DNA of 64,000 nucleotides from Tomocerus qinae. Taxonomy: Eukaryota; Arthropoda; Collembola; Entomobryomorpha; Tomoceridae. The first letter of the stretch is position 1; each line of letters begins with the position of its first letter. The notes beneath the pieces are model-generated. The model ran no database searches and was not told where the DNA came from. It saw only the letters and a program-made list of their open reading frames with translations. Both the position numbers and the translations under genes were made by a program. The stretch is from NCBI GenBank assembly GCA_020055645.1, contig CM034546.1, positions 79,980,001 to 80,044,000 on the forward strand. The letters are read 5' to 3'. This document shows positions 24,001 through 46,774 of this stretch, piece by piece.

Positions 24001-27000
24001 ATACTCAATATTAATCTATTTTGATGTTCTGTTGATTTTAATACTCAATATTAATCTATTTTGATGTTCTGTTGATTTTTATAGTCAATATTAATCTGTT
24101 TTGATATTCTGTTGATTTTAATACTCAATATTAATCTATTTTGATGTTCTGTTGATTTTAATACTCAATACTAATATATTTTGATGTTCTGTTGATTTCA
24201 ATACTCAATACTAATCTATTTTGATTTTCTATTGATTTTAATAGTCTATATTAATCTATATTGATTTTCTATTGATTTTAATAGTCAATATTAATCTATT
24301 TAGATTTTCTGTTGATTTAAATAATTAATATTAATCAATTGTGATTTTCTGTTGATTTTTATAGTCAATATTAATCTATTTTGATATTCTGTTGATTTTA
24401 ATACTCAATATTAATCTATTTTGATGTTCTGTTGATTTTAATACTCAATATTAATCTATTTTGATTTTCTACTGATTTTAATAGTCTATATTAATCTATT
24501 TTGATGTTCTGTTGAATTTAAAACTCAATATTAATCTATTTTGATGTTCTGTTGATTTTAATACTTAATATTATTCTATTTTGATGTTCTGTTGATTTCA
24601 ATACTCAATACTAATCTATTTTGATGTTCTGTTGATTTTAATACTCAATATTAATCTATTTTGATGTTCTGTTGATTTCAATACTCAATATTAATCTATT
24701 TTGATGTTCTGTTGATTTCAATACTCAATACTAATCTATTTTGATTTTCTACTGATTTTAATAGTCTATATTAATCTATTTTGATGTTCTGTTGAATTTA
24801 AAACTCAATATTAATCTATTTTGATGTTCTGTTGATTTTTATACTTAATATTAATCTATTTTGATGTTCTGTTGATTTCAATACTCAATACTAATCTATT
24901 TTGATGTTCTGTTGATTTTAATACTCAATATTAATCTAATTTGATGTTCTGTTGATTTCAATACTCAATACTGATCTATTTTGATATTCTGTTGATTTCA
25001 ATACTCAATACTAATCTATTTTGATGTTCTGTTGATTTTAATACTCAATATTAATCTATTTTGATTTTCTATTGATTTTAATACTCAATATTAATCTATT
25101 TTGATGTTCTGTTGATTTTAATACTCAATATTAATCTATTTTGATGTTCTGTTGATTTCAATACTCAATACTAATCTATTTAGATGTTCTGTTGATTTTA
25201 ATACTCAAAATTAATCTATTTTGATGTTCTGTAGAATTTAAAACTCAATATTAATCTATTTTGATATTCTGTTGATTTTAATACTCAATATTAATCTATT
25301 TTGATGTTCTGTTGATTTCAATACTCAATACTAATCTATTTTGATGTTCTGTTGATTTTAGTACTCAATATTAATCTATTTTGATGTTCTGTTGATTTCA
25401 ATGCTCAATACTGATCTTTTTTGATGTTCTTTTGATTTCAATACTCAATACTGATCTATTTTGATGTTCTGTTGATTTTAATACTCAATATTAATCTATT
25501 TTGATATTCTGTTGATTTTAATACTCAATATTAGTCTATTTTGATGTTCTGTTGATTTTAATACTCAATGTTAATCTATTTTGATATTCTGTTGATTTTA
25601 ATACTCAATATTAATCTATTTTGATGTTCTGTTGATTTTAATACTCAATATTAATCTATTTTGATTTTCTATTGATTTTAATACTCAATATTAATCTATT
25701 TTGATGTTCTGTTGATTTTAATACTCAATATTAATCTATTTTGATGTTCTGTTGATTTCAATACTCAATACTAATCTATTTAGATGTTCTGTTGATTTTA
25801 ATACTCAAAATTAATCTATTTTGATGTTCTGTTGAATTTAAAACTCAATATTAATCTATTTTGATATTCTGTTGATTTTAATACTCAATATTAATCTATT
25901 TTGATGTTCTGTTGATTTCAATACTCAATACTAATCTATTTTGATGTTCTGTTGATTTTAGTACTCAATATTAATCTATTTTGATGTTCTGTTGAATTTA
26001 AAACTCAATATTAATCTATTTTGATGTTCTGTTGATTTTAATACTTAATATTAATCTATTTTGATGTTCTGTTGATTTCAATACTCAATACTAATCTATT
26101 TTGATGTTCTGTTGATTTTAATACTCAATATTAATCTATTTTGATGTTCTGTTGATTTCAATACTCAATATTAATCTATTTTGATGTTCTGTTGATTTCA
26201 ATACTCAATACTAATCTATTTTGATGTTCTGTTGATTTTAGTACTCAATATTAATCTATTTTGATGTTCTGTTGATTTCAATACTCAATACTGATCTATT
26301 TTGATATTCTGTTGATTTCAATACTCAATACTAATCTATTTTGATGTTCTGTTGATTTTAATACTCAATATTAATCTATTTTGATTTTCTATTGATTTTA
26401 ATACTCAATATTAATCTATTTTGATTTTCTATTGATTTTAATACTCAATATTAATCTATTTTGATGTTCTGTTGATTTTAATACTCAATATTAATCTATT
26501 TTGATGTTCTGATGATTTCAATACTCAATACTGATCTATTTTGATGTTCTGTTGATTTTAATACTCAATAATAATCTATTTTGATGTTCTGTTGAATTTA
26601 AAACTCAATATTAATCTATTTTGATATTCTGTTGATTTTAATACTCAATATTAATCTATTTTGATGTTCTATTGATTTTAATACTCAATATTAATCTATT
26701 TTGATGTTCTGTTGATTTTAATACTCAATATTAATCTATTTTGATGTTCTGTTGATTTTAATACTCAATATTAATCTATTTTGATGTTCTGTTGATTTTT
26801 ATAGTCAATATTAATCTGTTTTGATATTCTGTTGATTTTAATACTCAATATTAATCTATTTTGATGTTCTGTTGATTTTAATACTCAATACTAATCTATT
26901 TTGATGTTCTGTTGATTTCAATACTCAATACTAATCTATTTTGATTTTCTATTGATTTTAATAGTCTATATTAATCTATATTGATTTTCTATTGATTTTA

Positions 27001-28570
27001 ATAGTCAATATTAATCTATTTAGATTTTCTGTTGATTTAAATAATTAATATTAATCAATTGTGATTTTCTGTTGATTTTTATAGTCAATATTAATCTATT
27101 TTGATATTCTGTTGAATTTAATACTCAATATTAATCTATTTTGATGTTCTGTTGATTTTAATACTCAATATTAATCTATTTTGATGTTCTGTTGATTTTA
27201 ATACTCAATATTAATCTATTTTGATGTTCTGTTGATTTTAATACTCAATATTAATCTATTTTGATGTTCTGTTGAATTTAAAACTCAATATTAATCTATT
27301 TTGATATTCTGTTGATTTTAATACTCAATATTAATCTATTTTGATGTTCTGTTGATTTTAATACTCAATATTAATCTATTTTGATGTTCTGTTGATTTTA
27401 ATACTCAATATTAATCTATTTTGATGTTCTGTTGATTTCAATACTCAATACTGATCTATTTTGATATTCTGTTGATTTCAATACTCAATACTAATCTATT
27501 TTGATGTTCTGTTGACTTTAATACTCAATATTAATCTATTTTGATTTTCTATTGATTTTAATACTCAATATTAATCTATTTTGATGTTCTGTTGATATTA
27601 ATACTCAATATTAATCTATTTTGATTTTCTATTGATTTTAATACTCAATATTAATATATTTTGATGTTCTGTTGATTTAATACTCAATATTAATCTATTT
27701 TGATGTTCTGTTGAATTTAGAACTCAACATTAATCTTTTTTGATATTCTGTTGATTTTAATACTCAATATTAATCTATTTTGATGTTCTATTGATTTTAA
27801 TACTCAATATTAATCTATTTTGATGTTCTGTTGATTTTAATACTCAATATTAATCTATTTTGATGTTCTGTTGATTTCAATACTCAATACTAATCTATTT
27901 TGATGTTCTGTTGACTTTAATACTCAATATTAATCTATTTTGATTTTCTATTGATTTTAATACTCAATATTAATCTATTTTGATTTTCTATTGATTTTAA
28001 TACTCAATATTAATCTATTTTGATGTTCTGTTGATTTTAATACTCAATATTAATCTATTTTGATGTTCTGTTGATTTTTATAGTCAATATTAATCTATTT
28101 TGATGTTCTGTTGATTTCAATACTCAATACTAATCTATTTTGATGTTCTGTTGACTTTAATACTCAATATTAATCTATTTTGATTTTCTATTGATTTTAA
28201 TACTCAATATTTATCTATTTTGATGTTCTGTTGATTTTAATACTCAATATTAATCTATTTTGATGTTCTGTTGATTTTTATAGTCAATATTAATCTATTT
28301 TGATGTATTGTTGATTTTAATACTCAATACTAATCTATTTTGATTTTCTATTGATTTTAATAGTCTATATTAATCTATATTGGTTTTCTATTGATTTTAA
28401 TAGTCAATATTAATCTATTTAGATTTTCTGTTGATTTAAATAATTGATATTTATCTATTGTGATTTTCTGTTGATTTTTATAGTCAATATTAATCTATTT
28501 TGATATTCTGTTGATTTTAATACTCAATATTAATCTATTTTGATGTTCTGTTGATTTTAATACTCAATAT
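1..28570. repeat. 40-bp satellite array with higher-order repeats
   Basis: About 714 tandem copies of an AT-rich 40-bp unit whose first half is close to AATCTATTTTGATGTTCTGT. Variants include GATATTCTGT, GATTTTCTAT, TTGATTTCAAT and the ACTCAATACT ending. They recur in ordered blocks, so the array is built of higher-order repeats. One landmark variant, AATCTATTTAGATGTTC, starts at 11, 4211, 5731, 6851, 7891, 10331, 11011, 12051 and 14491, and every spacing is a multiple of 40. Spacings of 1040 then 2440 occur twice in succession (6851-7891-10331 and 11011-12051-14491), which points to duplication of segments of several kilobases. The 40-bp register shifts only at about 14750 (+1), 19541 (+1) and 27675 (-1). 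No long open frame is present. The array continues past the left edge of the window. Confidence 0.98.
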
Positions 28571-30093
28571 GAGCGTTTCGAACGAAAAAGGAGGAATATA
28601 AAATCAATTTACTATTTAGTTTAACCCATAGTTACTAATGTGTCAATTTTGATAATAATGAAAAGTAAGGGGTAGGATTTACCGATGATAAGTTAGCAAT
28701 TGCAATGAAAGTAAACCGTCTTTCCTGCAATGCAATTAAGGGAGCGTGTGTAAAAACAAGCAAAGAAACTTATATGGTGTCAGATCGGTTTAAGTATTGT
28801 GCACTTTTGTCCTTTATCAGTTCAATTCAGAGTCGCTTGAAATTAACTTAAACATTGGGAACTAAATTTTCTAAATAAAAAAGTAGTATTACAAATACTA
28901 GTGTAATGATTTTGTCTATTTTTCAAAAATCGCGAATTTCGGTTGACCTGCATTATAGTGTGTGTAGCACAGGTTACTGTTGTTTCAATGACATCCTTTC
29001 AATAATGACAATACTTTGCATTATTGAAAGAAACGATGTCAATTTTAAATTTTGGTAATATTTAAGCACCCCATTGAATTGGCGGTAGATAATCATATAA
29101 TATAATACTTTATAACTAACTAAGCCCCCAGTATTAATGCTGAATTTCAAAATGATTAGGCATATTAACAATGTTCAATTTTCGAAATAAGCTAACCATT
29201 CATATCGGACTTCCTTGTTTTATGAAATATGCATAGTGTACAGTTTTATTATACAGCGATGGAGTTAAAGATTTTCGCGCTAAAAGAGCGGTTCAGCTTG
29301 TTGGTAATAAATAATGAAAGCATAATATTCCCACAATAAAATTGATGTCAATTTTAGCCTAAAATGCAGGCAAAGCACGTTCAAAAGAGGGAATATAAAC
29401 TTTTCACTATGTTTATTTGCTTTGAAGTAATTGGTATTTGTGTTAACTACGATATAATTTTGTCCGTATTACATCAATAACTTGAAAACTAAATACCTAA
29501 GCCAAGATAATTTCTTACATGTTATTGGGACTGGGATCAGGTAAGCTGATAGTCCGAGTAAACAAATTAAAATTTCAATTTCTTTCTTATTTTATTTTCA
29601 TATGCAGCAGTAGGACTACTCTCCCTATCTCACCCTGCCCTTTGCTTACTACCATTCATTTTGGCACAAAATTGTCGAATTTAAAAAAATGAAAAAAAAA
29701 TCGATTTTAATTTTTTGCATTTGACTACCAACCTACCTGATCACAGTCCCAATAATAGTCACTTAGGTAATTATTACGACTTCGTCCTTGAGTAAAACCA
29801 ATCTTGTATTAATTTTTAAAAAACCCATTATATTAAGTGTTGTATTATGAACTGGAACCTCGTCTTAAGTGCTGAGGGCTTCTCAAGACGTCCAATCGTC
29901 GAACCGATACGTACAAATCGGCGTCTTGACGACTGTAAAAAAATTCATACCCCTAGTGCCCGTCCATCATTTGTCGCAATTCCATAGTTGAAAAATTTTA
30001 CCCCTGATATTTCATTTTTATCTTAATTGTAACTATGGATTAAATAATCATAAAATAAAACTTTATATTCCTCCTTTTTCGTCCGAAACGCTC
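28571..30093. mobile_element. Non-autonomous TIR element inserted in the satellite
   Basis: A 1523-bp block of unique sequence splits the satellite. Its ends are inverted repeats: GAGCGTTTCGAACGAAAAAG at the left matches the complement of the right end with one mismatch over the first 32 bp. Weaker pairing continues to about 65 bp (28571-28635 with 30029-30093). The satellite reads CAATAT before it and ATATTAATC after it, so a 4-bp ATAT appears to be duplicated. Inside, TATTGGGACTGGGATCAGGT at 29523 is repeated inverted at 29734-29754, giving a sub-hairpin. No transposase was recognised; the longest frame (28974-29171, minus) resembles nothing known. A 4-bp duplication occurs in Sola and Ginger-type elements, but the superfamily is not assigned. 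Confidence 0.88.
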
Positions 30094-31126
30094 ATATTAA
30101 TCTATTTTGATGTTCTGTTGATTTTAATACTCAATATTAATCTATTTTGATGCTCTGTTGATTTTAATACTCAATATTAATCTATTTTGATGTTCTGTTG
30201 AATTTAAAACTCAATATTAATCTATTTTGATATTCTGTTGATTTTAATACTCAATATTAATCTATTTTGATGTTCTGTTGATTTTAATACTCAATATTAA
30301 TCTAGTTTGATGTTCTGTTGATTTTAATACTCAATATTAATCTATTTCGATGTTCTGTTGATTTCAATACTCAATACTGATCTTTTTTGATATTCTGTTG
30401 ATTTCAATACTTAATACTAATCTATTTTGATGTTCTGTTGACTTTAATACTCAATATTAATCTATTTTGATTTTCTATTGATTTTAATACTCAATATTAA
30501 TCTATTTTGATGTTCTGTTGATTTTAATACTCAATATTAATCTATTTTGATTTTCTATTGATTTTAATACTCAATATTAATCTATTTTGATGTTCTGTTG
30601 ATTTTAATACTCAATATTAGTTTATTTTGATGTTCTGTTGATTTTAATACTCAATATTAATCTATTTTGATATTCTGTTGATTTTAATACTCAATATTAA
30701 TCTATTTTGATGTTCTGTTGATTTTAATACTCAATATTAATCTATTTTGATGTTCTGTTGATTTCAATACTCAATACTGATCTATTTTGATGTTCTGTGG
30801 ATTTCAATACTCAATACTAATCTATTTTGATTTTCTATTGATTTTAATAGTCTATATTAATCTATATTGATTTTCTATTGATTTTAATAGTCAATATTAA
30901 TCTATTTAGATTTTCTGTTGATTTAAATAATTAATATTAATCTATTGTGATTTTCTGTTGATTTTTATAGTCAATATTAATCTATTTTGATATTCTGTTG
31001 ATTTTAATACTCAATATTAATCTATTTTGATTTTCTGGTGATTTTCATAGTCAATATTAATTTATTATGATTTTCTGGTGATTTTCATATTCAATATTAA
31101 TCTATATTGATTGTCTTGTTGATGTT
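30094..31126. repeat. 40-bp satellite, right-hand part and decaying edge
   Basis: The array resumes directly after the inserted element and runs for about 25 more units. Units match the consensus up to about 31020. They then diverge (GATTTTCTGGTGATTTTCAT, then GATTGTCTTGTTGATG) and lose the pattern near 31126. Greater divergence at the edge than in the core is usual for satellites, because unequal exchange homogenises the middle best. The last units include the ATAGTCAATATTAATC form, which is nearest to the short repeat runs in the dispersed elements at 37420-37490 and 40180-40440. Confidence 0.95.
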
Positions 31127-31279
31127 GAAGATTTTTTCAATAATTGTAAATATTGATCAAATTTGAATTACATTTTACTAATCAAAATAAATCTGTTTCT
31201 ATAAGGATTCAACCAAAAAATGTGTACACCGTCCCCTTCACGCAGGCGAGCTTCTGTTACGGCTTGCCGTAGGTTTTTA
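31127..31279 (+). mobile_element. Helentron-like element, 3' end (copy A)
   Basis: After the last decayed satellite unit comes a terminal module: GTCCCCTTCACG, then CAGGCGAGCT at 31243-31252, then the hairpin TACGGCTTGCCGTA at 31258-31271 (6-bp stem, 2-base loop), then about eight more bases. The same module in the same order lies inverted at 40110-40165, where similarity also stops just past the hairpin. CAGGCGAGCT is the complement of AGCTCGCCTG, found at the 5' end of other copies. Subterminal inverted repeats, internal tandem repeats and a short hairpin near the 3' end are the described layout of Helentron-derived non-autonomous elements (the DINE-1/HINE type). Assignment to that class is inferred from structure; no replicase-helicase gene is present. 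Confidence 0.68.
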
Positions 31280-31690
31280 GCTTGCCTGAATAAGGCAGCT
31301 TATAGAACCGCACAGTCTGTCCGTACGTCCGTCCGTACGTCCGTCCCCACGATAACTTTCTAACACAAAGACCGAAGTTGACCAACCTTGGCAAAAACAA
31401 TACCTATGGACTACTGACGATCCCTATTGATTTTGGAGGAAATCGGTCCATTGGTTGTTGAGATACTGCGCGCTCACTTTGTCTTCATTTTGATAGTTAA
31501 AGTAGAAAATGGGCGTTAAAAAAGTTCAAATGCGTTTCCTATAAATTGTTGACTTAATAGTGCGCTATTAACTCTTTAAATTCATTTACATTTTGATTCT
31601 TTAAGATCACATTACATTTTGATTTTTTAAATTCCTTAACATTTTGGCTCCTTAAATTCACTTACATTTATACTCTTTTGAATTAACTGC
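31279..31690 (+). mobile_element. Helentron-like element, 5' end and body (copy B)
   Basis: Begins with AGCTTGCCTGAATAAGGCAG immediately after the 3' end of copy A, so the two sit head to tail. The body has CGTCCGTACGTCCGTCC repeats, a GATAACTTTCTAACAC stretch, TTGGCAAAAACAATACC, a GAGATACTGCGCGCTCACTT block and ATTTTGATAGTTAAAGTAG. The same blocks in the same order occur at 37048-37260, 46800-46930 and 52365-52460, and inverted at 52770-52860. Unlike copies with satellite-like repeats, this copy goes on into a separate repeat of about 35 bp at 31570-31680. No coding capacity was found. Confidence 0.7.
31570..31680. repeat. Short ~35-bp minisatellite in Helentron-like copy B
   Basis: About three to four imperfect units containing TTAAATTCACTTACATTTTG-like sequence (AATTCATTTACATTTTGATT, then AATTCCTTAACATTTTGGCT, then AATTCACTTACATTTATACT), with one unit reading AAGATCACATTACATTTTGA. 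It lies where other copies of the same element carry the 40-bp satellite-like units. Confidence 0.6.
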
Positions 31691-31705
31691 TTCATTAATA
31701 CAATG

Positions 31706-31780
31706 GGCGTACAGGTCTGTCTAGTGGTGTAAACAGCCGCTTCTCAGGCTGAGGTCTGGAGTTCGAATCTCTGGAGCGCC
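31706..31780 (+). mobile_element. tRNA-like head, probably of a SINE
   Basis: A 75-bp stretch resembles a tRNA gene. GGCGTAC at the start pairs with GAGCGCC at the end (five Watson-Crick pairs, one G-T pair, one mismatch). TCTAGTGGTGTAAAC looks like a decayed D-arm/A box. CAGCC and GGCTG can form an anticodon stem around an oversized loop. GAGTTCGAATCTC is a good B box, with a wobble-containing T stem. The eight-base anticodon loop and weak D stem argue against a working tRNA. A tRNA-derived SINE head or a tRNA pseudogene is more likely. The downstream limit is unclear. Confidence 0.5.
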
Positions 31781-32299
31781 TCAGGTTTATAAGGTAGTAG
31801 TCTAGAGCTGTGAGAAGCTGTCATTGCCGTATATTCGTTACTAGCATTGATTTACCTATCAAAGCCCTGTCTGTAGCGTATGGATTGTTCTGTTGCTCTG
31901 TATACGTGCTACGAGTACTTCCTAGCACAAGTCTGGACAATGGGATGCACATGAGGTGATAAGGTGGCTTGAAGTAGACTGCCATAAGTGATTTGAAGGT
32001 GGTCACTGGTGGTCGGCTTACATACCCAGGTCCCTCTCTGCCTGCTCACCAGGTTGAGTTGCATGACAGTGTTGATTGAGTCGTTCCGTCCCATGGTTCA
32101 GTACTCTTCACTAAGTCGCTTCGTGTAAGTCTGTTTCGGGAGTCACTCCAAGTAAGCCCTCGCGGCTTGAGCGGTGGCATAGGATTGTTGGGGAAGAAAC
32201 AATCACTAAAGATGCAATAGATAGATGCGAAAATCAACGACGAAGTTGAATGAATGCAAGTATGATTGATAATTAGAGGACCTCATAGTTTTAGTGCCG
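31781..32299. other. Unassigned spacer with one dispersed motif
   Basis: No gene is recognised. Short frames on the minus strand (61-63 codons) resemble nothing known. GGGAGTCACTCCAAGTAA at about 32139 and the following GCGGCTTGAGC recur at about 48675-48710, so about 45 bp here belongs to a dispersed repeat. This could be the body of the SINE that begins at 31706, or a scrap of another retroelement. Confidence 0.4.
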
Positions 32300-35200
32300 A
32301 TAATTTTCAAACTGTGAATAGACTCGCCATATAGTTCTTGGCAACATTTACCGAAAGTGCCGCTGCCTAAATTGGAGAACGTGCAGCCGAAGATTTGGAC
32401 TGAACAATGCTAAATTAATTGTTCTTTGGAAGTGTGGAAGACTTGGTTGGGCTCTTTACGGAAAATATCGTTATCGAAGACGTGGGGATGAAAGTTTTGT
32501 CTGTTTAATATTGAAAAACCCTGATGATCGAATTTATTAACTTATGAAGGATTCATTCCGAATCAAGAGTGAAAATCTCGGAAGATACTTTGCTGTCACG
32601 AGAAGACAAGAGAACAAAAGAATTGACTGTCTGACTAATAGACGTGTTGATGGTGGATGGGAGACTGTCCTTTTAGGAAAGATGATGACATCATTATTCC
32701 ATAGATAGACAATGGCTCTTAACCGTCTATATTCCATAAAGAGAAAAATGGACAGAAAGTCTGATTTTGCTTAACAGTACTGCGGGAAGATCAATGAATA
32801 TTAAGAAAAGGGATTTGTAAATAAGCTGACTGCAGAAGAATTAGGCAAGTCGAATCCATGAACCTGGTATCTACAATATTTTGCAGTTTATAATCCCAAT
32901 AAGCCTAAGAAACTTTGACTGGTTTTCGATGCTGCGAAGAAATCCAGAAGGGTGAGCCTTAATGACAAACTTTTGAAGGGATTGGATCTGTTGAAGCCTT
33001 TACTTGCCGTACTGTGCAAATTTTGACAAAGAAATTTGGACTTGGTGCCGACATCCGTGATATGTTTTCCCGTGTGAAAATACGAGAAGAGAAATTGCCG
33101 GCCGCTGCCCAACGTTTTCTTTGAAGAGGAATGGATAGAAAGAGCCTGCCTGACGATATGGATGTTATGATTTTCGGCGCAGTTTTGTCTCCCTATTCAG
33201 TCCAATAAGTTGAAAACCGAAATTTTTTAACTTTGGAACCACCTGCTCCAGAAAATGCTGTGAGTGCTATAGTGGCCAGACACTATATGGACGACTATCT
33301 GGACAGCTATAGCAGTGAGGCCGATGCCAAAAAATTAATTCTGGAAGTTGTCAATGTCCATAAGCAGGGTGATTTTGAGATATACAATTGGATACACAGT
33401 GACACGAAAATATTAGAAGTCCTTCCGGAAAATCTGCTGCTGCAAAAGAAGTTATTAGCATGGAGGGAAAAACTGCAACAGGAGAAGCCGCAACCGAGAC
33501 AGTGCTTGGACTTCACTGGGATCCCGTGAAAATATGTTCGTGTTTACGACTAAATTAAAGAAGGTAGATGAACTTCTTGTTAATGGAATGAAAAAGCCAA
33601 CGAAACGTCTTTGACCCTCTTGGATTCCTGACTCACCTGACGATTAAAGTAATTTTTAAAATATTTCACTCCCACATTCCTTGAAAAATGAAATATTTGA
33701 AATAAATGAATTAAAACCGCACAAAAATTATTGTTACTAAACAGAAATAATTTACTCATTCCTAAAGGTACTTTATCATTACAAACTTTGAATAAACATA
33801 ATGAGGAAATATTAAATAACTATAACATAAACGTAAATGACTCTGTAAGTAAAAATATCTGTTATCCAGCCTGTACTTATATTGTACTACCATTTTATAA
33901 ATGTATTTCAGACATGTGTAAGATAGTTACACAGTTGTTGAAAAACGAATTAAATGAATGTACAAGTGAAAGTTATGCTAGTGCAGCTTCAAACTTAATT
34001 ATGAGAGTTTGTAACAAGAAAGTGAATAAACTGACTAATTTCGAAAGTTAATTTGACGCTATGTATTATTTAAATCTAGTTTGTGTTACGTTGTACTATA
34101 CCCTGCTTTATGTATACTCATTCTCACACAGCCGACCTTGAATTAGCGCACTTTTCAAGATGCTGATTCATTCCGTTTTGGCTGACTACTAAAAGGAACA
34201 TTCGGCCTTTCAATTGGATTTTTTCAAAAATTGTTATTTTTCATTTAAACTAATTTTAAAGTTATTTGATTAATTGGCTATTTGTATTTGTGAACATAGA
34301 ACGTGTCGCCTTTTAAGGTACTTACTAGGTTTTATTAATTTTCTCACTAATGGCAACATAATAATACGTATTAATATAATTTCGATGTTATTTAATAACT
34401 CAATTCGCCTAAAAACCTAGTTTTACCCACTACTTTGTTGCATTATATTAAATCCATTTCTAATTGACTATTAAAAATTTAATTTGTGATTTTACATTTG
34501 ACCTTTAGCCTGATGAAGTTGTAACAAAACCTAGTTGCGAAATAAAGGCCATCTGTTGTAATTGGAAAAGTTCGAGTTCAAGTGGTTTATTCCTGAAAGG
34601 TAGTGCAGTGCCTTCACTACACTCTCCGGGTTATTCTATGGGAGAATCAAAAGAATGTTTCAAGAAGTCTTTTTTCTTAATGAGTACATGGCATTTATTT
34701 CAATAAATTTTGCGCGAAATGAATGAATTGTGCATGCGTGTACAAATGCGCATTGTGTTTATTTCAAAAACTTCATTTATTCCACTAATTTCATTAATTT
34801 CAAATATTTCATTTTTGAAGAAAAATTTCTTGAAATAAGAAATTAGGAACGACGGCTGAGAGCACTTCAAGATTGCCATCTGATGGACGACGATCCAAGC
34901 CTCTCTTGCAATTGTAGGGAACCGCATTGGTCCGCACCGCACAAAATTCTAGAAAACACCGACTTGAAAAACTGTCACTAGGTCCCAACGAAGGAGAATC
35001 AACCGGCAGACCTGCAGATATTAGCCCAGGAAGCAGATGGCTCAGAAGTGAATATGAATGAGTTGCTTTTGGCAGTCCTGAAAGGAGATGTCGATGAAAA
35101 GGATCTGTCAAAGAAAAAAAGCTTTGTGGCGAGCATCACATTTGCTCAGGACGGACTACCAGACATCTTCCGATTTTCCTAATTCCTGCGACTCACCAGA

Positions 35201-36028
35201 AGTAAGGCATGGATGTTACGATTTATTTCGAGGAGTCATATGGAACTACGAGCCGGTAGACTGAAAAGTTTGGTTAGATGGTGCTGAAGGGAAGAATTAG
35301 CCACGCCGCCCAGTTTGGGGCCCCAACATATTGTCCAATAACTCTCTATCCCAAGAACGAATAAGTTAGTGTTGCAGCAGGCTCATTCTGCAGCAGGACA
35401 CAATTTTTAACGAAGTGGGCCAGAAATATTGGGTTTTGGATGTTCGGGCGGCTTTGAAAAGAACATTGAAAAATTGACAAATGTCCAAAGTTAAGAAATT
35501 GGTGCCGATGGAAATTGAGATGGGACAGCTGCCAGCTTTCCATGTGAATCGTCACGTCAGCCATGACCTTTCAGGTTTACTGGTTTAGATTACTTTGACA
35601 TTTGGTCTGACAACTTCCACGGAGTCAACAATGAACTGAAGAAGGCTCTGGATGAACTGAATCAAAATCAGATTGTAAGTGAAATGGTAGTGGAAAGAGT
35701 GGACTGGAAATTCATTCCGCATTCAGGACCACAAAAAGGGGGTATCTAGGAACATCATGTTAGATCGGTGAAAACTGCACTCAGCGCAGTCCTCAACACA
35801 CGATCACAGAAAGAAGATGTTTTGCAGAACCTAATGGCCGAAGCGGAATATTCTGCGAACAGCCGGCCTTTGACTCATGTATTCAACGACCCAGACGGTG
35901 GGGAAAGTTTAACTGCGAATCACTTTCTCTTAGGGGGACCTCGTAGAGTACAGAATGTGGGAAATTTCTCGGACTGGGACTTATTTACCCGCAAAGAATG
36001 TAGACTGGCACAGAAGTTGGCTGACATC
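32300..36028 (+). mobile_element. BEL/Pao LTR retrotransposon fossil, plus strand
   Basis: Decayed pol sequence of a BEL/Pao element, related to but clearly different from the copy at 40455-46774. Recognisable parts in order are the pre-RT region (about 32400-32850), reverse transcriptase (about 32850-33650, including the YMDDYLDS active-site motif near 33285), and integrase to its C-terminal part (about 34850-36020). No LTRs were found. It is broken in many places and interrupted by another repeat (33681-34819), so it is an old, inactive copy. The 21-bp minisatellite begins inside its integrase C-terminal part. Confidence 0.85.
33681..34819. mobile_element. Unclassified repeat with inverted ends inside the BEL fossil
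   Basis: About 1.1 kb separates the RT and integrase parts of the BEL fossil. TTGAAAAATGAAATATTTGA at 33681 is repeated inverted at about 34790-34819, so the block may be bounded by roughly 30-bp inverted repeats. It contains a 106-codon plus-strand frame (33731-34051) with no recognised domain. Near its right side (34505-34545) is GCCTGATGAAGTTGTAAC followed by AAACCTAGTTGCGAAA, which resembles a motif at 55245-55280. No target duplication was established and the family is unknown. Confidence 0.5.
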
Positions 36029-36935
36029 TCAACATGCTCTATTAGGGATTCAACATGCTCTATTAGGGATTCAACATGCTCTATTAGGGATTCAACATGC
36101 TCTATTAGGGATTCAACATGCTATTAGGGATTCAACATGCTCTATTAGGGATTCAACATGCTCTATTAGGGATTCAACATGCTCTATTAGGGATTCAACA
36201 TGCTCTATTAGGGATTCAACATGCTATTAGGGATTCAACATGCTCTATTAGGGATTCAACATGCTCTATTAGGGATTCAACATGCTCTATTAGGGATTCA
36301 ACATGCTCTATTAGGGATTCAACATGCTCTATTAGGGATTCAACATGCTCTATTAGGGATTCAACATGCTCTATTAGGGATTCAACATGCTCTATTAGGG
36401 ATTCAACATGCTCTATTAGGGATTCAACATGCTCTATTAGGATTCAACATGCTCTATTAGGGATTCAACATGCTCTATTAGGGATTCAACATGCTCTATT
36501 AGGGATTCAACATGCTCTATTAGGGATTCAACATGCTCTATTAGGGATTCAACATGCTCTATTAGGGATTCAACATGCTCTATTAGGGATTCAACATGCT
36601 CTATTAGGGATTCAACATGCTCTATTAGGGATTCAACATGCTCTATTAGGGATTCAACATGCTCTATTAGGGATTCAACATGCTCTATTAGGGATTCAAC
36701 ATGCTCTATTAGGGATTCAACATGCTCTATTAGGGATTCAACATGCTCTATTAGGGATTCAACATACTCTATTAGGGATTCAACATGCTCTATTAGGGAT
36801 TCAACATGCTCTATTAGGGATTCAACATGCTCTATTAGGGATTCAACATGCTCTATTAGGGATTCAACATGCTCTATTAGGGATTCAACATGCTCTATTA
36901 GGGATTCAACATGCTCTATTAGGGATTCAACATGC
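36029..36935. repeat. 21-bp minisatellite, about 43 copies
   Basis: Almost perfect tandem copies of CTCTATTAGGGATTCAACAT plus G. Only three units are short (near 36121, 36225 and 36437) and one has a substitution (CATACTC near 36769), so the array is young or well homogenised. A 21-bp unit is a multiple of three, so long frames appear in several phases of both strands. They read as heptad repeats such as LLGIQHA, SIRDSTC or HVESLIE and are probably by-products, not genes. A 1.5-unit relative, inverted with two mismatches in 30 bases, lies at 63291-63320. Confidence 0.97.
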
Positions 36936-37047
36936 TGTAAGTAAATTACAATATAGTATAGATTGTCCAAGTTTCGAGAATCCCCCCACCCTCTACTAAA
37001 TAAACATTGAAGCTAACGGGGTAGTAGTTTTTTTCTAAGCTCCTTTT

Positions 37048-37490
37048 AGCTCGCCTGAATAAGGCAACTTATGGAACTGCACAGTTTGTGAATCCGTCCG
37101 TTCACCAACTTTTGAACGCAATCACGGAAATTGACCAAACTTGGCCATTGCTAATGGCCCTGTGACGAAGCCTATTCATTTTGGTTCAAATTGGTCAATA
37201 AGTTCTGAGATACCGCACGCTCGCTTCATTTTGATAGTCAAAGCAATACAAAATGAATTGTGTTTCCTATAAACTGTTACTCGATAGCCAAAAAATCCAT
37301 ACTGCTTCTAACGAACTTTATTTTTATAGTAAAGCAACTAAAATACAACCGGAAAGTACGAGTTCAGGAACGAATTTCTTTTGGCTTTGGCAGTCAGTAT
37401 TAACTGAATTTAATTTGCCCTATTTGGATTTTCTTTTAATTTTGATAGTCAGCATCAATCTAATTTAATCTTTTGTTGATTTTGATAGTA
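37048..37490 (+). mobile_element. Helentron-like element with satellite-like units (copy C)
   Basis: Opens with AGCTCGCCTGAATAAGGCAA (37048). It continues with the shared body blocks: GGAACTGCACAGT, CGTCCGTTC, TTGACCAAACTTGGCC, a GATACCGCACGCTCGCTTCA block and ATTTTGATAGTCAAAGC. It ends in two or three degenerate 40-bp units (ATTTTGATAGTCAGCATCAA, then TTTTGTTGATTTTGATAGTA) in the same orientation as in the large satellite. The 3' module with the hairpin is not seen, so the copy is truncated or decayed at its end. It lies just upstream of the first visible GMC exon, in what may be an intron. Confidence 0.68.
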
Positions 37491-37633
37491 AGTAAAAATT
37501 AGTAAAAGCAAAATTGCTCACTTTCACGTGCGATGTTGTTACAAATTACATTTCGCGGATGGATGATGATGGATATGGATGATGAATATGCGCTTGTATA
37601 CGAAAGTAAGAATTAGTAATTATGTTTTTGTAG

Positions 37634-39244
37634 ATTCCATTGGTCTTCAATAACACCAGCGTGGGTAAAAATCTACAGGACCATGTAGCTACCTACATTT
37701 CATTTACATTTAATGAGACAGACACGTCATTTATTGTGGAAAGAGATTTTACATCCGATTCTATGAAACTATATGACAGCGATAGATCTGGTAAAATTTA
37801 TTTTGCAATTTACGAATAAATTTTTTCATAGATTACCAGTCTAAAGTTACAAAGATCCTTTATTATAATATAAAGCTAAAATGTATACTACTATATATAT
37901 GAAGGCGTATATATATATTATATTTTTAATAATTGCATCGGAAATATGAAAGCTAAAACTTGATTTTTTTGTGCTTTTTTTAAAAGGGCCTGCTGCTGGT
38001 AACGGATTGTTTGCCACAGGTTATACTTCCAGCAAATTAAATGGCAATTCTCATTGGCCTGACGTCCAAATATTTGAAATTTACTCTGGTTTGAGTAAAC
38101 TTTTTGTTGACACATTTTATAATCTGTACAACTTTAAGGAAGGAACCTTTGACAGGTATTTGCAACCATACAGCGATAATTGGACTGATGGTAATGTGGC
38201 TTTGGTTAGTCAAGTTCGACCAAAAAGTGTTGGAACTGTAAAGTTGGCCAGTAAGAATCATAATACTGCTCCATTGATCGACCCCAACTATTTTAGTGAT
38301 CCTGAGGGATTTGATATGCAGGGAATGATTCATGGTAAGATCTGAATTAAAAATACGAAGGACTATTTTTAAATAGGCATATCGGAGTTTGACTATTTCT
38401 GCAAATACAATCAGCTCACCAACACAAAAAATTTGTATATTTGAAAATTTCTTTATTTTTTTCGATCCCGGTGCTCGCCCCTGCTGCAGGGTTGCGGTGT
38501 CCGGATAGGAAGGTGTGGACGAAAGTGGATAAAAGTGGTTTTATTCAGGGCAGAACTAGTTTTTTCCTGGAAGAAATTAGTTTTGTCCACTTTTGTCCTG
38601 GATAGAAAGTGGAGAAAACTAATTTCATCCTGGACAGTAATAGTTTTGTCCGGACAAAACGCAACCCTGCTCTGCCGCCTTGCGTGAAAATAATTTTTTG
38701 AGCTAAATTCGTTTTTATTTATTTAGGAGTGAAATATATGGTGAATATATTTGAGAATACAGACGCATACAAAAGATACAATGCTACATTTATACCTAAA
38801 CCTTTCCCAGGCTGTGAACATCATGTTTTCAAAAGCGATGCTTATTATGAATGCCAAGTAAGGCAATTCACAGGGACAATTTGGCATTACAGTGGAACTT
38901 GCCGCATGGGTAAAGAAGACGACCCAAAAGCCGTTGTTAATCCTGAACTAAAGTTGGTTTTTCATTTACGCAGTTAAAAACTGTTTTCAGCCCTCACATT
39001 GCTAATTGCATGTTCTTTGATGTTTCACAGAGTAATCGGTATTAATGGCTTACGAGTTGTCGACGCCTCAATAATGCCAGTAATAACAAATGGAAACACA
39101 AACGCTCCTACCATAATGATTGGTGACAAAGCTTCTGACATGATTTTAAAAACGTGGGAAAATTGCCAACCATCAAGTGGTCAAGATGAAAATGGTCCAC
39201 CACTATCGTCAGCTATTAATACTGTACATGACATATTACTGTGA
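37634..39244 (+). CDS. GMC oxidoreductase (glucose-dehydrogenase type), last four exons
   Basis: Four exons join in frame: 37634-37790, 37987-38334, 38727-38952 and 39031-39244, with GT-AG borders and phases that fit. They encode 314 residues and a TGA stop. This is the C-terminal half of the insect flavin-dependent GMC family, usually about 600 residues. It begins with the VGKNLQDHV motif, runs through the substrate-binding domain ([20 protein letters not shown]), and ends with [11 protein letters not shown] and [11 protein letters not shown], then [17 protein letters not shown]. The family's catalytic histidine (WHYSGTC) and the second conserved polar position (NTNAP) are present. Members oxidise glucose, ecdysone or other alcohols using FAD. 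The FAD-binding N-terminal exons are not in the window; they may lie upstream beyond the repeats, or this may be a detached piece. The third donor (GTTGGT at 38953) was chosen because it yields the family pattern [14 protein letters not shown]; it is a weak site. The coding sequence has no stops. Confidence 0.9.
38487..38669. mobile_element. hAT-like MITE in a GMC intron
   Basis: 183 bp bounded by imperfect inverted repeats: CAGGGTTGCGGTGTCCGGA at the left and TCCGGACAAAACGCAACCCTG-type sequence at the right. It lies in the intron between 38335 and 38726. The flanking 8-mers CCCTGCTG and CTCTGCCG match at six of eight positions, as expected for an aged 8-bp target duplication. CAGGG ends and 8-bp duplications are typical of hAT transposons. 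There is no coding sequence. Confidence 0.75.
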
Positions 39245-40109
39245 AATGTCATGTATATTATTATTTTAAATCAAAAACTTTAGGTCGAGTAAAATTACAA
39301 CTTTGTACATAGGTATGTAATTCAATTTTGTGTCAATTGTCGTAAACTGGAATTATAGAAATAACATAAGTAAACTGGTCTTGTGGCAAAACTATTGAGA
39401 AATGAAGATCAGTATACACAGTATGTACACTACAAAGAGCCAAGTACATTGATAGTAGTGTAATTGTAGGTATTGATATATTGAGTGTACGGATGTAAGT
39501 ATTGTAACTATGGATCTACATATTATGTACTGTGTAGTAAGATGCGCCCAATTTATTATACTATATTGTGTATCCCTACTCTGACCCTTTGTACGACAAA
39601 GCGAGCGAGAGTAAGCCGAGTATGGAGATCGGAAACGAGAGAACGTTACAAAAGCCAGAACCGGAAACCACTTTCGCTGGAGTCTATTGAATATCTCTTC
39701 TCGCTCACTACCTAAACTCTTTGCCCCCTGTCTATTATATTATTACCGAAAAATCCTAACCAACATCATCTCATTCCATTCAACAACCACCTACTCTGTA
39801 ACTTGCATTGCTTATAATAAAAGAACACTACACTTTGTCCGTAAATCCCAAATCCAAACCTTTATTCAGGAGATTATTTAACAAATTCATAGTATAGACC
39901 GTTAGAGGTAGAACCCGTTAAATTTCTATTGTTTGTCCCAATTTAATTTATTTTTTTATTTAATTATGACCAAAACACCATTGGATGACATTAAGAATGG
40001 CCATTTCACATCAGAGATCTTTCACATTACTTGCTTGAGCTAAATAACTACTACTACTTAAATTTTCCCAACTGACTTTAAAGTTGACGTAAGACAGTTT
40101 TTGCACATT
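39245..40109. other. 3' flank of the GMC gene, no further gene seen
   Basis: The stretch probably holds the 3' untranslated region. A candidate poly(A) signal AATAAA is at 39816-39821, about 570 bases after the stop codon. Short open frames here (64-76 codons) have no recognisable domains and are probably chance. Confidence 0.35.
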
Positions 40110-40450
40110 ATTGGAAACTTACGGCAAGCCGTAACAGAAGCTCGCCTGAGTAAAAGGGGACTTTTGGAAGAAGAATGATGAAAATGAAAATCAACAAAAA
40201 GTCTAGGTAGATTAATGTTTACTATCAAAATCTTAACATATTAATATTGATTATAAAAATGAAAAGCAAATCATAATGTTGACTATCAAAACCAAAAAAT
40301 GTTGAATATCAAAATCAAAAGACATTAAAAATAAAGAATAAAAATAAACACTATCAACGTCAACACCAAACCAAAATAGATTAATGGTAGCTATCAAAAT
40401 CAACAGAAAATCAAAATTGAAAAACGTTGATTATTAAATTAAATACAAAT
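40110..40450 (-). mobile_element. Helentron-like element, 3' half with satellite-like units (copy D)
   Basis: Read on the minus strand, this holds several degenerate 40-bp units (GTTGATTTTGATAGCTACCA, TTTGATAGTAAACATTAATC and similar, 40180-40440). Then follow CCCCTTTTACT, the subterminal repeat CAGGCGAGCT (complement at 40139-40148) and the hairpin TACGGCTTGCCGTA (complement at 40120-40133). Order and orientation are exactly those of copy A at the end of the big satellite. The left boundary lies a few bases beyond the hairpin. The BEL element inserted at 40455, just outside or within its upstream part. Confidence 0.75.
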
Positions 40451-40454
40451 GCAC

Positions 40455-40818
40455 TGAAAGCTGCAGATCCGGCAAGCTCTCTTTGAATAACTATCTCAAA
40501 AAATCTGTACTTAAATGTCGGGGGTGGCTATCGTCTATCTCTGCCTAACTTGTCAAATAAACAGAAATTAGCCAGAATTAATGCTAAGTGTGACTTTTAT
40601 TATCTATAAAAGTCACGATCAATAATTGACAATTAATTCAATCAATCAAATCTAAATCAATTATGCCAAAAAATCAATCAAATATCGGAGCACAATCAAT
40701 CTCGTCCTCTCTCCAAAGCAAGTCTGTCCGTTGGTTCTTTTTTCTTCTCTCTCCTACGCGTCCAATCTCTCGCTCCTGATTCGTTTCCTATCACGGAAGT
40801 CTTAAGTCCGCGCGAACA
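40455..40818 (-). repeat. LTR (3' LTR) of the BEL/Pao element
   Basis: 364 bp, starting TGAAAGCTGCAG and ending GCGCGAACA on the plus strand. It matches 46397-46774 closely. The length difference is due mainly to two short indels. TGCAC lies immediately outside. Confidence 0.93.
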
Positions 40819-40849
40819 TCCTTCCCTTCCGGATGGTGGCAAAGGCACA

Positions 40850-43800
40850 TCCGCTTCCCCTCGTTTGGATTCGTCATCTGCATCCACATCCATAACGCAC
40901 AACTTTACAACGGGGCGCTTGAAAATTCCTGTCTTCGTCTTCACGTCTACAACTCTAGTTATTCCATCTTGTCCAGGATAGAGTTTCACGATTTTCCCTC
41001 TAGGCCAATAGTTCCGTTCCAAATTGTGGTCGACTATGACCACAAGATCTCCTTGCTTCACTGGCTTTACATTTCGATGCCACTTAGTTCTTCGAATTAA
41101 AGTCGGAAGGTACTCCTGCATCCATCTTCTCCAGAAATTGTCTGAGAGTTGCTGGGCTGTTCTCCACTGCTTTTTCAAGCACATGTCAGCATTCGTAAAT
41201 ACTCCAGGTGTTCGGACCCCACTAGAACTGCCAATCAGAAAGTGATTGGGAGTTAAGCATTCATCGTCATTCGGGTCAACCGATAAATAAGTCAGTGGAC
41301 GGCAGTTTACTGAATGTTCTGCTTCAGTTAAAACGGTCCGTAGCACTTCCTCCTTCGGAGCTTGTTCCTTCAATGTTATTTTCAGGGCAGTCTTCACAGA
41401 ACGCACCAATCTTTTCCAGCTTCCCCCCATATGGGGAGCTGCGGGGGGTATGAAATGCCAATCGATACCCCTAGTAGTCATTTCTCTCTTGAGTTTTTCT
41501 TGGTCAAAGTCTTGAAGAGCTTTCTTCAATTCCGCATCAGCTCCTCGGAAGTTGGTGCCATTATCCGAATAAATTGCTGTCGGATTTCCACGTCTTGAAA
41601 TGAAACGGCGAATCGCCATAATGGCAGAGTCGGTAGTCAGCGACGAAGCCAATTCAAGGTGCACGGCTCTCGTGGACAAACAAGTGAAGAGCGCACCATA
41701 TCGCTTTTCACGTCTTCTTCCCACCCTAATTTCCATGGGCCCAAAATAATCAAAGCCCGTCACTGAAAATGGTCTGTCAAATTTCTGTAATCGGCAGTGA
41801 GGTAACTGTCCCATATGTGGTTGGCATGTAGTAGCTCTTCCCAGTTTACATTTCTGGCATCTGCTCCAAACTCCTCTCACGGCTGCACGAATATCAATTA
41901 TCCAAAAACGTCGTCGTAATTCATTTGCTACAGTTTCTTGTCCAATATGTCCAGCACGGACATGGTAGTGATGAATTAAAAGGCGAGTAAAAGGATGTTT
42001 GGAGTCAAGAATAATAGGATTCTTCATCTCCGCTGTCATCTCAATCGAATTTTGAGTTCGGCCTTTCAGTCGCAATAATCCTTGGCCATCTAGAAATGGT
42101 AAAAGCGTGAAAAGTCTGCTAGATTTCTCCACCTGATTTCTTTTCTTCAAGGCTTCAATGTCTCCAGAAAAACTTTCACTTTGAACTTGCTTGAACCATT
42201 TTATTTCAGCTTCTAAAAATTCAGCACGATTCAATTCTGATTTGAGCCGCAGATTATTTTCCAGTCGAATATTTTTCACGAATCTGCTAACCCAAGCTGT
42301 CGTTCTTATTAATTGCAAATAAGAAGCGAACTTTTCAATATCTGGAAGAGTGGCCCGGCTGCTGGCTTCAATTGTCACGCAGACCTGTTCTCGTTTCAGC
42401 TCCAACTCTTCCATGTTGTCAAAATCTTGAATTTTAATCTTCTCCTTTTCTTTCGGCCATTCATCCTTAGGGAGTTTCAGAAAGGATGGTCCGGTAAGCC
42501 ACCGACATTTTTTCTTCGAAGTCACACTGAGAGGAATCTCGTGTGGCCTCGTCCGCCACATTTTACAAAGTCGGTACCCACTTCCAATCTGAAATATCCG
42601 AAGTCTCCAGAATTTCTCCAATTCTGTGGGCCACAAATGGCTTGTAGTTGCGAGAATCCGAACGCAACCAACACAGAACTGTCTTGGAGTCACTCCAGTA
42701 AGTACAGTAGTTCAAGAGTGACACCCTCGTCCTGACAGTAATCAGGGTAGTCACAATAGTTGTATTATTTTCAACACGAATGTACGCAGCAGCGGCAAAG
42801 GCCTTCTCGCTGGCGTCACAGAAGATGTGCAGCTGGATATTCGTACTTTCAGGAACAACAGAGTAACTTCTAGGGATATTCATCATGCGTATTTTCAATT
42901 CCTCCAGCCATCGCATCCACTTATCATTTAGCATGTCCGTGAGGTTGTCGTCCCATCCAATCGCAGATCTCCAGATATCTTGTAGCAAGATTTTCGCTTT
43001 AACTGAGAGATAAATCCCAGCGGGTCGAAAATAGACATCACAAGTTTAAAAACTTCTCTTTTCGTCGGATGTCTGGTTCCATTCACAACATTAGGATCTA
43101 CTTTATGGAAACTGCAATTAAATGTAAACTTATCAGTGTCAGGATTCCACCGTAGACCCAAAACTCGTTCTATTTGCACTACTTTGTCGCTATCCATATC
43201 TTTCACTTCTGATTCCAACTTGGAGAATAACTCAGGATAGTTTTCACATAATTTCAGCAGTACTTTTCGGGAACTGCAAGTCCAATTCATTATTTGAAAT
43301 CCTCCTTGCTGGTGCACACGAATTACTTCGAAAATTCTCTTTACAGCTTCTGATTCATTGTCGATGCTGTCCAGGTAGTCGTCGACGTAGTGCCGCTTGA
43401 CTATCGCTTCCACTGCTTCAGGAAAAGTATCTTGAAATTCCCTGGCGTTCCTATTCTTGATTTCTTTAGCCAAACATTGACTGCAGGTGGGTCCAAACGT
43501 CATGACACACATTTCATATGTGTCTGGAGGCTTATCTCTGTCCTTTCCCCTCTAGAGAAATCTCTGGGCACATCTATTTTCCTGTCGAACTAGGACGCGG
43601 TGAAACATATCAGCTATATCACCGCTGAAGGCTATTTTACGTTGCCTGAATTTCATGAGTACTCCCACTAGATTCGATAGCTGATCAGGGCCTGCGAATA
43701 AATTTTCATTAAGACTTATACCTCGGCTCCGAGCAGCGGCATCAAATACGAGGCGGATCTTCCCAGGCTTATTCGGATTAGTCACGGCGAAATGAGGTAA

Positions 43801-44740
43801 ATACCAAGTTTTGTCAGTGTGAATGGCAGCCTCCTCTCGTGGTAATTTCTTTACGTATCCTTTCGAAATGTAATCTTCAATCTTCAAACAGTACTGTCTG
43901 GAATATTCGGGATCACGATCCATCTTTTTATCTATGATCTTGAGTCTTGACAAAGCGTTGCACTTACTTTCAGGTAGACAGATATTGTCCGATTTCCACA
44001 ATAAACCTGTCTCCCAACGATTGTCACATCGACTAATGATCTTGTCCATAATTTCTCTGCAACGAATTTCTTCTTTGGATGTGGGGAGATTCATCACAGC
44101 TCTAACTCCAAAGGTTTCAGTCTTAAAGGACTCCTTGGCAAGGTGATGCAATGAATCCTCTTCCTCATCTTTAAAAACGTGCATAGTGAATTGCTTATCA
44201 ACACGGCCTTTGAAATTATGCACATTGCCGTAAGCTGACCATCCAAGTTTGGTTCTACTGAGACATGGTCCGTCGTCTGCTCCAGTAACAATTTCTCTTG
44301 CAATTATTAAAGCACCATGATCTTGTCCAATGAGAATTGTCGGCTTGGCACAATCCATAGAAGGGGCAAGTCCAGGGTTCATGTAATTCCACTTCTTGGC
44401 CAAGTCTCTCATCTTTACTGTCTGCAGCGGTAAATCCAAACTTTTCACTGTTTTCACATTCTGCAGCAAATATTCGGTGTTGGTATCTTTTCCAGAAACA
44501 TACATTTCAATATTCTGTGAAGGTTCATTCACGATCACAGAATTTGTCCATTGTCGTCTGAACTGCACTGTAGGTCCACTGGCTCCTATTTTTTCAGCTA
44601 TGTGCGATTCAACCATAGTACAGGTCGATGCATCATCCAGCATAGCATATGTCGAAATAGTTCCAGTAGGTCCCCTTAACTTCACAGGCAGAACTCGCAG
44701 TAGCACTGACTTTTCAAGAACAGTAGTATGATGTGACACA
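40850..44740 (-). pseudogene. BEL/Pao pol region (protease, RT, RNase H, integrase)
   Basis: Domain order on the minus strand is typical of BEL/Pao. A retropepsin-like segment (AMLDDAS) lies near 44640. Reverse transcriptase spans about 43000-43850, with FSGDIADMFHRV and YVDDYLDS. RNase H is around 42600-42850, with IFCDASEKAFAAAAY and YWSDSKTVLCWL. The integrase zinc-binding segment (HYHVRAGHIGQ with a later CQKC) is near 41850-41980. The integrase core is near 41400-41770, with GFDYFGP and YSDNGTNFRGA. A basic C-terminal part precedes the LTR. The region is fragmented by several breaks and is reported as a fossil. Confidence 0.9.
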
Positions 44741-46240
44741 TGTGATGTGTCAGTAGTTTCAGTTTCCTTTGGATTCTCTGTTTGCTGTGGTGTCGATCTT
44801 GTCTCCTCTGGGTGGGATATTTCTTATGTAACGAACCATGATGTCTTCCTCGGCATCTGTTTGTTCCACAACCTTCCTCCTTACAGTTACGTGAATGATG
44901 TCCAAACTTAAGGCATAAAAAACAGACCTTATTATCTGTCACCAGCTTCCACCGAGAGTCGATATCTTCTTTCCAGTAGCCACGACAATTTCTTACGTCA
45001 TGGTTTTTCTGACAAAACAAGCAGCACTGTTTTCCTGAATGGGAGGCGTCTGATTTCGTATTGTCAGTCACAGTCAGCACACGTTCTCCACGATCGGTAT
45101 TTCTTTTACCTTTCTTGTCAGTTTTCGGTTCGGAGTAAATTGTCGGTGTGGAGATGAGGCTGATTGCTTTTGCTTCAACTTTCAACCAATTTGAAAAGTC
45201 TTTAAGATTTATATTTTCAAAAATAACTGCTTGTCTTGCCCATTCTTTTCTGGAGGTAGGCGGCAGCTTATTCACTAAATCTTCCATCAGTTAAGGGTTA
45301 TCCAGGTGACCCGTCGTTTTCAACGTCTCCATCGTACTGATCAAATTTCGTACGGCGTTAGAAAATTCGATGATCATTTCAGGCTTGTCTTCTTTCGGGG
45401 AAGGTGTATGCTTCGCTTTTTTAATCAAACTTTTGATAATGTGGGCAGGCCTACCAAATCCTGTCTCCAGAGTTTCCAAAACTTCATCTAGGTTGTCCGG
45501 GATGACCATCATGGCGAGAACTGAGTCTTTCCTTTCAGGTACTTGCGAAGTCGAGCCATATTTTCTTGTTTTGTGAATCCGCATGTCTCTGTCGATCCTC
45601 GAAACTCGGCAATAAAATTTGGCCACTCTGAAGGGTTTCCATCAAATGTCAGTAGATCCTTACTTCCAGATGTCGAGCCATCATTTTCTTCAGATTGTCT
45701 TCTTGAGGTTTCGTCGCACCTGAACATGACTTAACAGCTTGCAGAATAGCTTGAGCCAACTGATTCGTACTACTATCTGGAATTGGGTCGACCAAGGGGT
45801 TTCCATCGGCATCAGCTTTGACAGGCCAATCGCGAACTACCCGCTGCCCTCTCGTAACGCTATCTACACTTACGTCATCGTCGTTGTCACTCAATTTTTG
45901 GTCGCTGTTTTCTTCATCATAGATTTCAGCTTGTTGCAGTTTCAGTCGTTTCTGTGAGATCAGCTTCTCACGTTCTAATTTGTTCTTCAAATTTTTCAGT
46001 TCAAGGGCTTCAACATTATTTTCTAATTCGGCTAATGCTTCAGCTTCTTCCAGGTCGGTTTTTAGCTTACGGGCAGCTGAACTTTTCGATGTCTTTCTAC
46101 TTACTCGATCAGCGGAAGTCCCAGTCTTCCCTCTTGACGGTTGACTTTTCAATTCTGACACATCGTCGTCGGAGTCATCGATACTTATCGCCAGATCTGG
46201 GTTGTCTTGTATCATCGACTTCTTCAACCGTCGCATCAGT
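44740..46240 (-). pseudogene. BEL/Pao gag region
   Basis: The N-terminal part is rich in charged residues, with a predicted coiled-coil stretch (LEEAEALAELENNVEALELK). A middle capsid-like part with the FDGNPSEWPNF motif, common in BEL gag proteins, follows. It ends with two CCHC-type knuckles (CLFCQKNHDVRNC and CFLCLKFGHHSRNC) near 44870-45030, which would bind element RNA in the particle. The reading frame is not continuous. Confidence 0.85.
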
Positions 46241-46396
46241 GCGTTAATGTCTTCAGACGGTTCTCAGGCGTTTTCTCCTCTTAATCTTTGACTTTGTCTT
46301 GGGCCGTCCGCCATAGTCTGGATTTTCAAATGTCACATATATCACTTTAGGACTGTAAACACAGGACTGTCCAATTTGGCACTCGAAGGACCGCAA

Positions 46397-46774
46397 TGAA
46401 AGCTGCAGATCCGGCAAGCTCTCTTTGAATAACTATCTCAAAAAATCTGTACTTAAATGTCGGGGGTGGCTATCGTCTATCTCTGCCTAACTTGTCAAAT
46501 AAACAGAAATTAGCCAGAATTAATGCTAAGTGTGACTTTTATTATCTATAAAAGTCACGATCAATAATTAACAATTATTTCAATCAATCAAATCTACTAA
46601 AAATCAATTATGCCAAAAAATCAATCAAATATCGGAGCACAATCAATCTCGTCCTCTCTGGTCTCTCTCCAAAGCAAGTCTGTCCGTTGGTTCTTTTTTC
46701 TTCTCTCTCCTACGCGTCCAATCTCTCGCTCCTGATTCGTTCCCTATCAAGGAAAGCTCAAGTCAGCGCGAACA
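46397..46774 (-). repeat. LTR (5' LTR) of the BEL/Pao element
   Basis: 378-bp partner of 40455-40818. It would carry the promoter for minus-strand transcription. The primer-binding site should lie just inside it, around 46378-46396; the tRNA primer was not identified. Confidence 0.93.

Follow-up and report, generated by a model that had tools for sequence, protein, structure and literature searches.

Organization of the Locus

The stretch of DNA considered here, a 64-kb window of the genome of the collembolan Tomocerus qinae (contig CM034546.1, positions 79,980,001 to 80,044,000; coordinates below are counted from its first letter), holds a 40-bp satellite array, partial copies of a dispersed transposable element family and a long terminal repeat (LTR) element (Table 1). 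The array in view amounts to 29.6 kb, with 714 units in its left part and 26 in its right part, 735 of them exactly 40 bp long. Pieced together from the partial copies, the element family comprises a 5′ module, an internal minisatellite of ~40-bp units that looks old, and a 3′ module that carries the subterminal inverted repeat (subTIR) CAGGCGAGCT and the hairpin sequence TACGGCTTGCCGTA and stops at a T-run. By this structure the family would belong to the Helentron-derived HINEs, and the array is probably the hugely expanded central repeat of one non-autonomous Helentron-like (HINE/DINE-1-like) copy, copy A, with the units of the left part taken as central repeats of this copy.

Table 1. Coordinates of the satellite array, element copies and adjoining insertions in the window.
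Feature	Position	Strand	Details
40-bp satellite array, left part	5..28570	+	TRF, period 40; cut into 714 units; left end beyond the window
Insertion splitting the array	28571..30093		1.52 kb; inverted ends (GAGCGTTTCG...); target duplication ATAT or TA
40-bp satellite array, right part	30094..31123	+	TRF and unit cutting; ~26 units
Copy A, 3′ module (tail)	31124..31273	+	Weak unit-like stretch (~31172), CCCCTT, subTIR CAGGCGAGCT (31243-31252), hairpin sequence TACGGCTTGCCGTA (31258-31271), GG, T-run
Copy A2, 5′ module	31274..31560	+	Directly behind tail A; 12-bp GTCCGTCCGTAC run; ATTTTGATAGT at 31487
Tandem repeat behind A2 module	31571..31678	+	25 bp x 4.3
Copy C	37044..37490	+	5′ module (AGCTCGCCTG at 37048), then degenerate 40-bp units, best-matching at ~37420-37487
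Copy B	40118..40449	-	Degenerate 40-bp-like units, CCCCTT, subTIR, hairpin sequence, end GTAAG before TTT; adjoined by LTR element
LTR element	40455..46774	-	Inserted beside copy B; LTRs 94% identical; 5-bp target duplication TGCAC on both sides
5′ module fragment D	46818..46922	+	ATTTTGATAGT at 46907; nhmmer E 8e-13
5′ module fragment E	52372..52514	+	ATTTTGATAGT at 52424; E 2e-10
5′ module fragment F	52779..52860	-	E 2e-7
5′ terminus fragment G (doubtful)	63757..63783	-	TTTTTAGCTCGGCTGAGTAAGGC; nhmmer E 0.13; blastn with head C 0.001

Element Modules at and Around the Array

The original prediction that the right end of the array runs into a module with CAGGCGAGCT and the hairpin TACGGCTTGCCGTA was borne out. 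The exact hairpin sequence is found in the window at 31258 and at 40120 (minus strand) with no others, and exact CAGGCGAGCT at 31243, 40139 (minus) and 37048 (minus, reading AGCTCGCCTG on the plus strand). The minus-strand copy B has the order that had been foreseen for it (units, CCCCTT, subterminal repeat, hairpin), with a tail 91% identical to that of copy A across 47 bp (E 4e-13) and colinear with its units, such that units and tail form one continuous alignment in the two copies (30912-31276 against 40449-40115, 65% over 377 bp). While this copy is real, its proposed extent has to be shortened to 40449, where the LTR element has inserted. In copy A, ~110 bp of poorly matching sequence lies between the last clean array unit and CCCCTT, within which a weak unit-like stretch ending near 31198 scores 29 against the array consensus (0 of 100 shuffles scoring as high) and 24 against the consensus of the dispersed units (4 of 100). 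The array very probably lies inside an element copy.

The sequence that follows the hairpin at the array, rather than being unrelated, is the 5′ module of another copy, A2, which starts at 31274 after two bases and a single T-run behind the hairpin sequence. The third copy, C, stands as a 5′ module followed by satellite-like units, its start being moved from 37048 to ~37044, and no tail for it was found in the window. The family 5′ module begins TTTTAGCTCGCCTGAATAAGGC, with just 71% identity between its A2 and C versions. The subTIR AGCTCGCCTGA at the start of head C matches its inverted copy in tail B over 11 bp and that in tail A over 10 bp, with head A2 having one mismatch in 10, a comparison that joins ends from different copies. 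Both tails end at a T-run (GTAGG before TTTTT and GTAAG before TTT) and heads A2, C and G start at TTTT, in a sample of two tails and three heads, of which G is doubtful, the T-run between tail A and head A2 being common to both. No 5′ module for copy B was found in the window, the LTR element adjoining this copy. Copy B and fragment D cannot be one element split by the LTR element as D is in the opposite orientation; D is thus a different copy and the missing 5′ part of B is not recovered beyond the LTR element. The tandem repeat behind the A2 module is not supported as 40-bp units, scoring 26 and 20 against shuffle maxima of 28 and 26.

Internal Structure of the Array

Inside the 29.6 kb array no subTIR, hairpin or head motif was detected at up to two mismatches and, since the array is without element modules, a tandem array of whole elements is rejected. 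Array units recur as multi-unit blocks at irregular lags, the best within the 714-unit part being 104, 26, 43 and 168 units. The best 20 block pairs listed measure 0.98-4.3 kb with identities of 98.5-99.9%, the top three being of 4314 bp (98.9%), 3184 bp (99.2%) and 2524 bp (99.6%). This pattern is the trace that repeated unequal exchange or replication-based block copying would leave. The last unit that is not 40 bp long (31097-31134) seems, by eye, to be degenerate with GTTGAAG in place of the array TTTAATA. The insertion that splits the array has inverted ends of which the first 32 bp are nearly identical and ~110 bp alignable at 75%.

Dispersed Units and the Direction of Change

On sequence similarity, homologous 40-bp units are present in the dispersed copies B and C. 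Aligned to the cyclic array consensus, copy B scores 99 (shuffle maxima 25, n = 25, and 31, n = 100) and copy C 66 (shuffle maxima 24, n = 25, and 27, n = 100). The mean identity is 0.66 within the units of copy B and 0.62 between those of B and C, as against 0.87 among the 82 distinct array variants. Divergence being greater among the dispersed units than among the array variants, the minisatellite of the element looks older.

At column 34 of the unit the 735 full-length array units (the other five of the 740 deviate from 40 bp and are excluded from the column counts) have A in 702, T in 32, C in one and G in none, whereas G is found in six of nine dispersed units (four of seven in B and two of two in C). 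The corresponding ATTTTGATAGT is present in all four of the 5′ modules extending as far as this site (A2, D, E and, at 37228, C). Compared with the dispersed-unit consensus none of 300 shuffles scored as high for any of these modules, with the consensus made by hand from the dispersed units, the motif picked after being seen and the four modules homologous rather than four independent tests. Against the array consensus the same sites in A2, C, D and E were equalled by 45, 17, 125 and 197 of 300 shuffles, respectively. G at column 34 is read as the older state. What the 5′ modules carry at this column and the greater variety among dispersed units both favour the direction from element to satellite, which is likely, if unproven.

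Several observations, in addition to the hand-made consensus and the choice of motif after the fact, weigh against this interpretation. In a maximum-likelihood tree of 92 units over 40 columns, in which fixed-phase array units were rotated (730 kept, 82 distinct) and eight dispersed units were included, with B4, a short unit, and the incomplete units of copy C left out, the array as one clade has a p-AU of 0.41 in the approximately unbiased test, and holding the array and its edge units together costs 3.3 log units. The tree resolves little and places the dispersed units B1 and B6 among the array variants. It had been proposed that array units would nest within the dispersed diversity; the array clade is neither confirmed nor rejected by the tree, and it is the state of the 5′ modules that favours nesting. 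The last two array units fall at the 63rd and 46th percentiles for identity to dispersed units, which rules out a smooth gradient of ancestral states toward the right edge of the array, although five of the last eight full-length units carry, in one of three diagnostic columns, the base typical of dispersed units, as against 119 of 735 overall. The tails of A and B are identical in 46 of 61 columns over their last 60 bp, lower than a published figure of 80% for one subfamily, and a tail model found no third tail in the window, the next match having an E of 1. The predicted single-strand folds of the tails (31243-31271 and 40120-40148) pair the subTIR GGCGAGC with the 3′ arm GCTTGCC of the hairpin and contain no lone hairpin, being matched by 14 and 22 of 200 shuffles. 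In the 64-kb window none of the copies shows both ends, as copy A runs off its left edge and the others are partial.

Alternative Explanations

The order of events could be reversed, with the satellite arising first and a Helentron-like element capturing units and then dispersing them. Helitrons are described as taking up host fragments, often with tandem repeats (PMC12628747), and the unit tree is compatible with capture, yet it is improbable given that divergence is higher among the dispersed units than in the array and that these units share with four 5′ modules a G at column 34 seen in 0 of 735 full-length array units. The units in B and C are also oriented alike relative to their modules and the A2 and C modules are only 71% identical; the association of units with modules therefore looks old. 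It is very improbable that the tail is a separate copy inserted at the right edge of an independent satellite. The window has only the right edge of the array and the poorly matching ~110 bp before CCCCTT would suit such an insertion, but copy B has the identical order and orientation of units and tail, and the gap itself contains the weak unit-like stretch noted above. Convergence of ends in some other kind of transposon, of the miniature inverted-repeat transposable element (MITE) or foldback type, likewise has little probability. No Pfam match to Rep or helicase was found at E 0.001 in the 10 of 23 open reading frames of the window that were scanned (open reading frames of at least 110 amino acids), and DINE-1-like elements were once annotated as MITEs (PMC4067079); however, the asymmetric inverted repeat, the hairpin sequence beyond its 3′ copy and the T-run ends make up the Helentron pattern.

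Accepting growth from central repeats of an element, it is conceivable, though rather unlikely, that the array arose while the element transposed, through aberrant rolling-circle replication, and not through exchange once it had inserted. In keeping with it, a tail-to-head junction of two copies adjoins the array (31274), and arrays with several 5′ ends and a single 3′ end are described for plant Helitrons amplified by the rolling-circle route (PMC12628747). Set against this, the array is without 5′ modules, its irregular block duplications of many sizes are as expected from long-term exchange in place, and the T-run junction would fit simple insertion at a T-rich end as well.

Comparison With Known Helentron-Derived Elements

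HINEs are described as having subterminal inverted repeats, a 3′ palindrome and T-rich targets, with some copies carrying microsatellites or tandem repeats, and for one HINE family subterminal inverted repeats identical over at least 11 bp are given as a criterion (PMC4067079). The family described here resembles HINE-Mo of a mite and DINE-1 of Drosophila in the placing of its subTIRs (close to the 5′ end, and inward from the 3′ end), in its 3′ palindrome, in the T-rich or TT insertion sites and in the microsatellite and central repeats of some copies (PMC4067079). Its shared subTIR is shorter, at 10-11 bp compared with 12-15 bp in the mite and 13 bp in DINE-1, and both the subTIR (~21 bases against 38-60 in the mite) and the hairpin sequence (~2 bases against 8-35) lie closer to the apparent 3′ end (PMC4067079). 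Oyster HINEs carry satellite-like central repeats, and Cg_HINE of the Pacific oyster has a similar plan of two modules with subTIRs, a 3′ palindrome, satellite-like central repeats and T-rich targets (PMC7492417). Its flanking modules pair with differing central repeats, a variation also seen here between A2 (25 bp) and C (40 bp), but its central arrays are short as described compared with at least 29.6 kb in the present case (PMC7492417).

Satellites from the central repeats of DINE-TR1, including dmgsat-7 of Drosophila serrata and D. mayri, form arrays of up to ~82.6 kb in D. serrata (PMC9957191, citing Dias et al., 2015). The likeness to the array described here lies in the origin from central repeats, a probable one here, and the long arrays; it is one of description, and the units are ~150 bp compared with 40 bp here (PMC9957191). 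This route to satellites is reviewed in PMC12628747 and mentioned in PMC6947457. The Helentron-derived kind of satellite is thus already known from flies and oysters, the present array probably being a further case. The original prediction of a satellite from Helentron-like internal repeats holds as to anatomy (subTIRs, 3′ hairpin sequence, 40-bp units, T-run borders) and the order of units then tail in two copies, with its direction favoured and not proven. In exact-match scans the tail, head and array-unit patterns were absent from viral contigs and the tail pattern from prokaryote contigs, where zero was expected and carries little weight.

Other Features of the Window

The LTR element beside copy B contains the Pfam domains DUF5641 and integrase zinc-binding and is of the BEL/Pao type. 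A very homogeneous minisatellite (36029-36936, 21 bp x 43.5, 98%) starts inside a reading frame resembling the integrase region of this LTR element, with one related stretch at 63286-63321 (minus strand). Behind copy A2, the sequence at 31700-31790 resembles a tRNA promoter box and may be a short interspersed element; no tRNA gene was found in 31124-64000, ARAGORN reporting none at 31700-31790. Two arrays of 22-bp repeats (TCCAGCTAGCCGAAGCCGAAGG) in opposite orientation occupy 63024-63253 and 63847-64000, and a long interspersed element-type reading frame with endonuclease and reverse transcriptase lies on the minus strand at 57744-60719. A stretch resembling a GMC oxidoreductase falls just below the Pfam cutoff. 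Along with the reverse transcriptase and endonuclease and the LTR integrase region, it gives the window a content that would fit an animal genome.

Proposed Origin and Growth of the Array

The family would have spread by rolling-circle transposition with the Rep-helicase supplied in trans, and the 5′ module of copy A would lie beyond the left edge of the window. In copy A the central units would have been amplified in place, whether by rounds of unequal exchange or by copying of blocks of several units in a replication-based way, and base changes such as GATAGTC to AATACTC presumably spread as the array grew. It is possible, if doubtful, that the 40-bp unit was itself seeded from a short ATTTTGATAGTCAA-like motif in the conserved 5′ module. 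The A2, D and E modules are without recognisable 40-bp units and still have such a motif. The 14-mer ATTTTGATAGTCAA, chosen after it had been seen, occurs 13 times in units and modules within 31124-64000 at up to two mismatches, compared with a mean of 0.93 and a maximum of five for 200 letter-shuffled 14-mers.

Often the sequence from which a satellite arose has decayed or is no longer nearby, whereas here one window contains both the likely source family and a large product array, and base changes suggest the direction and block duplications record the growth. The principle being published for flies and oysters, the value of the locus therefore lies in a compact worked example and in a test of whether a 5′ module can seed repeats. 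If such seeding is true, the passage from module motif to internal minisatellite to long array would be visible in a single 64-kb window, and every copy of the family would carry a latent seed for new minisatellites and satellites.

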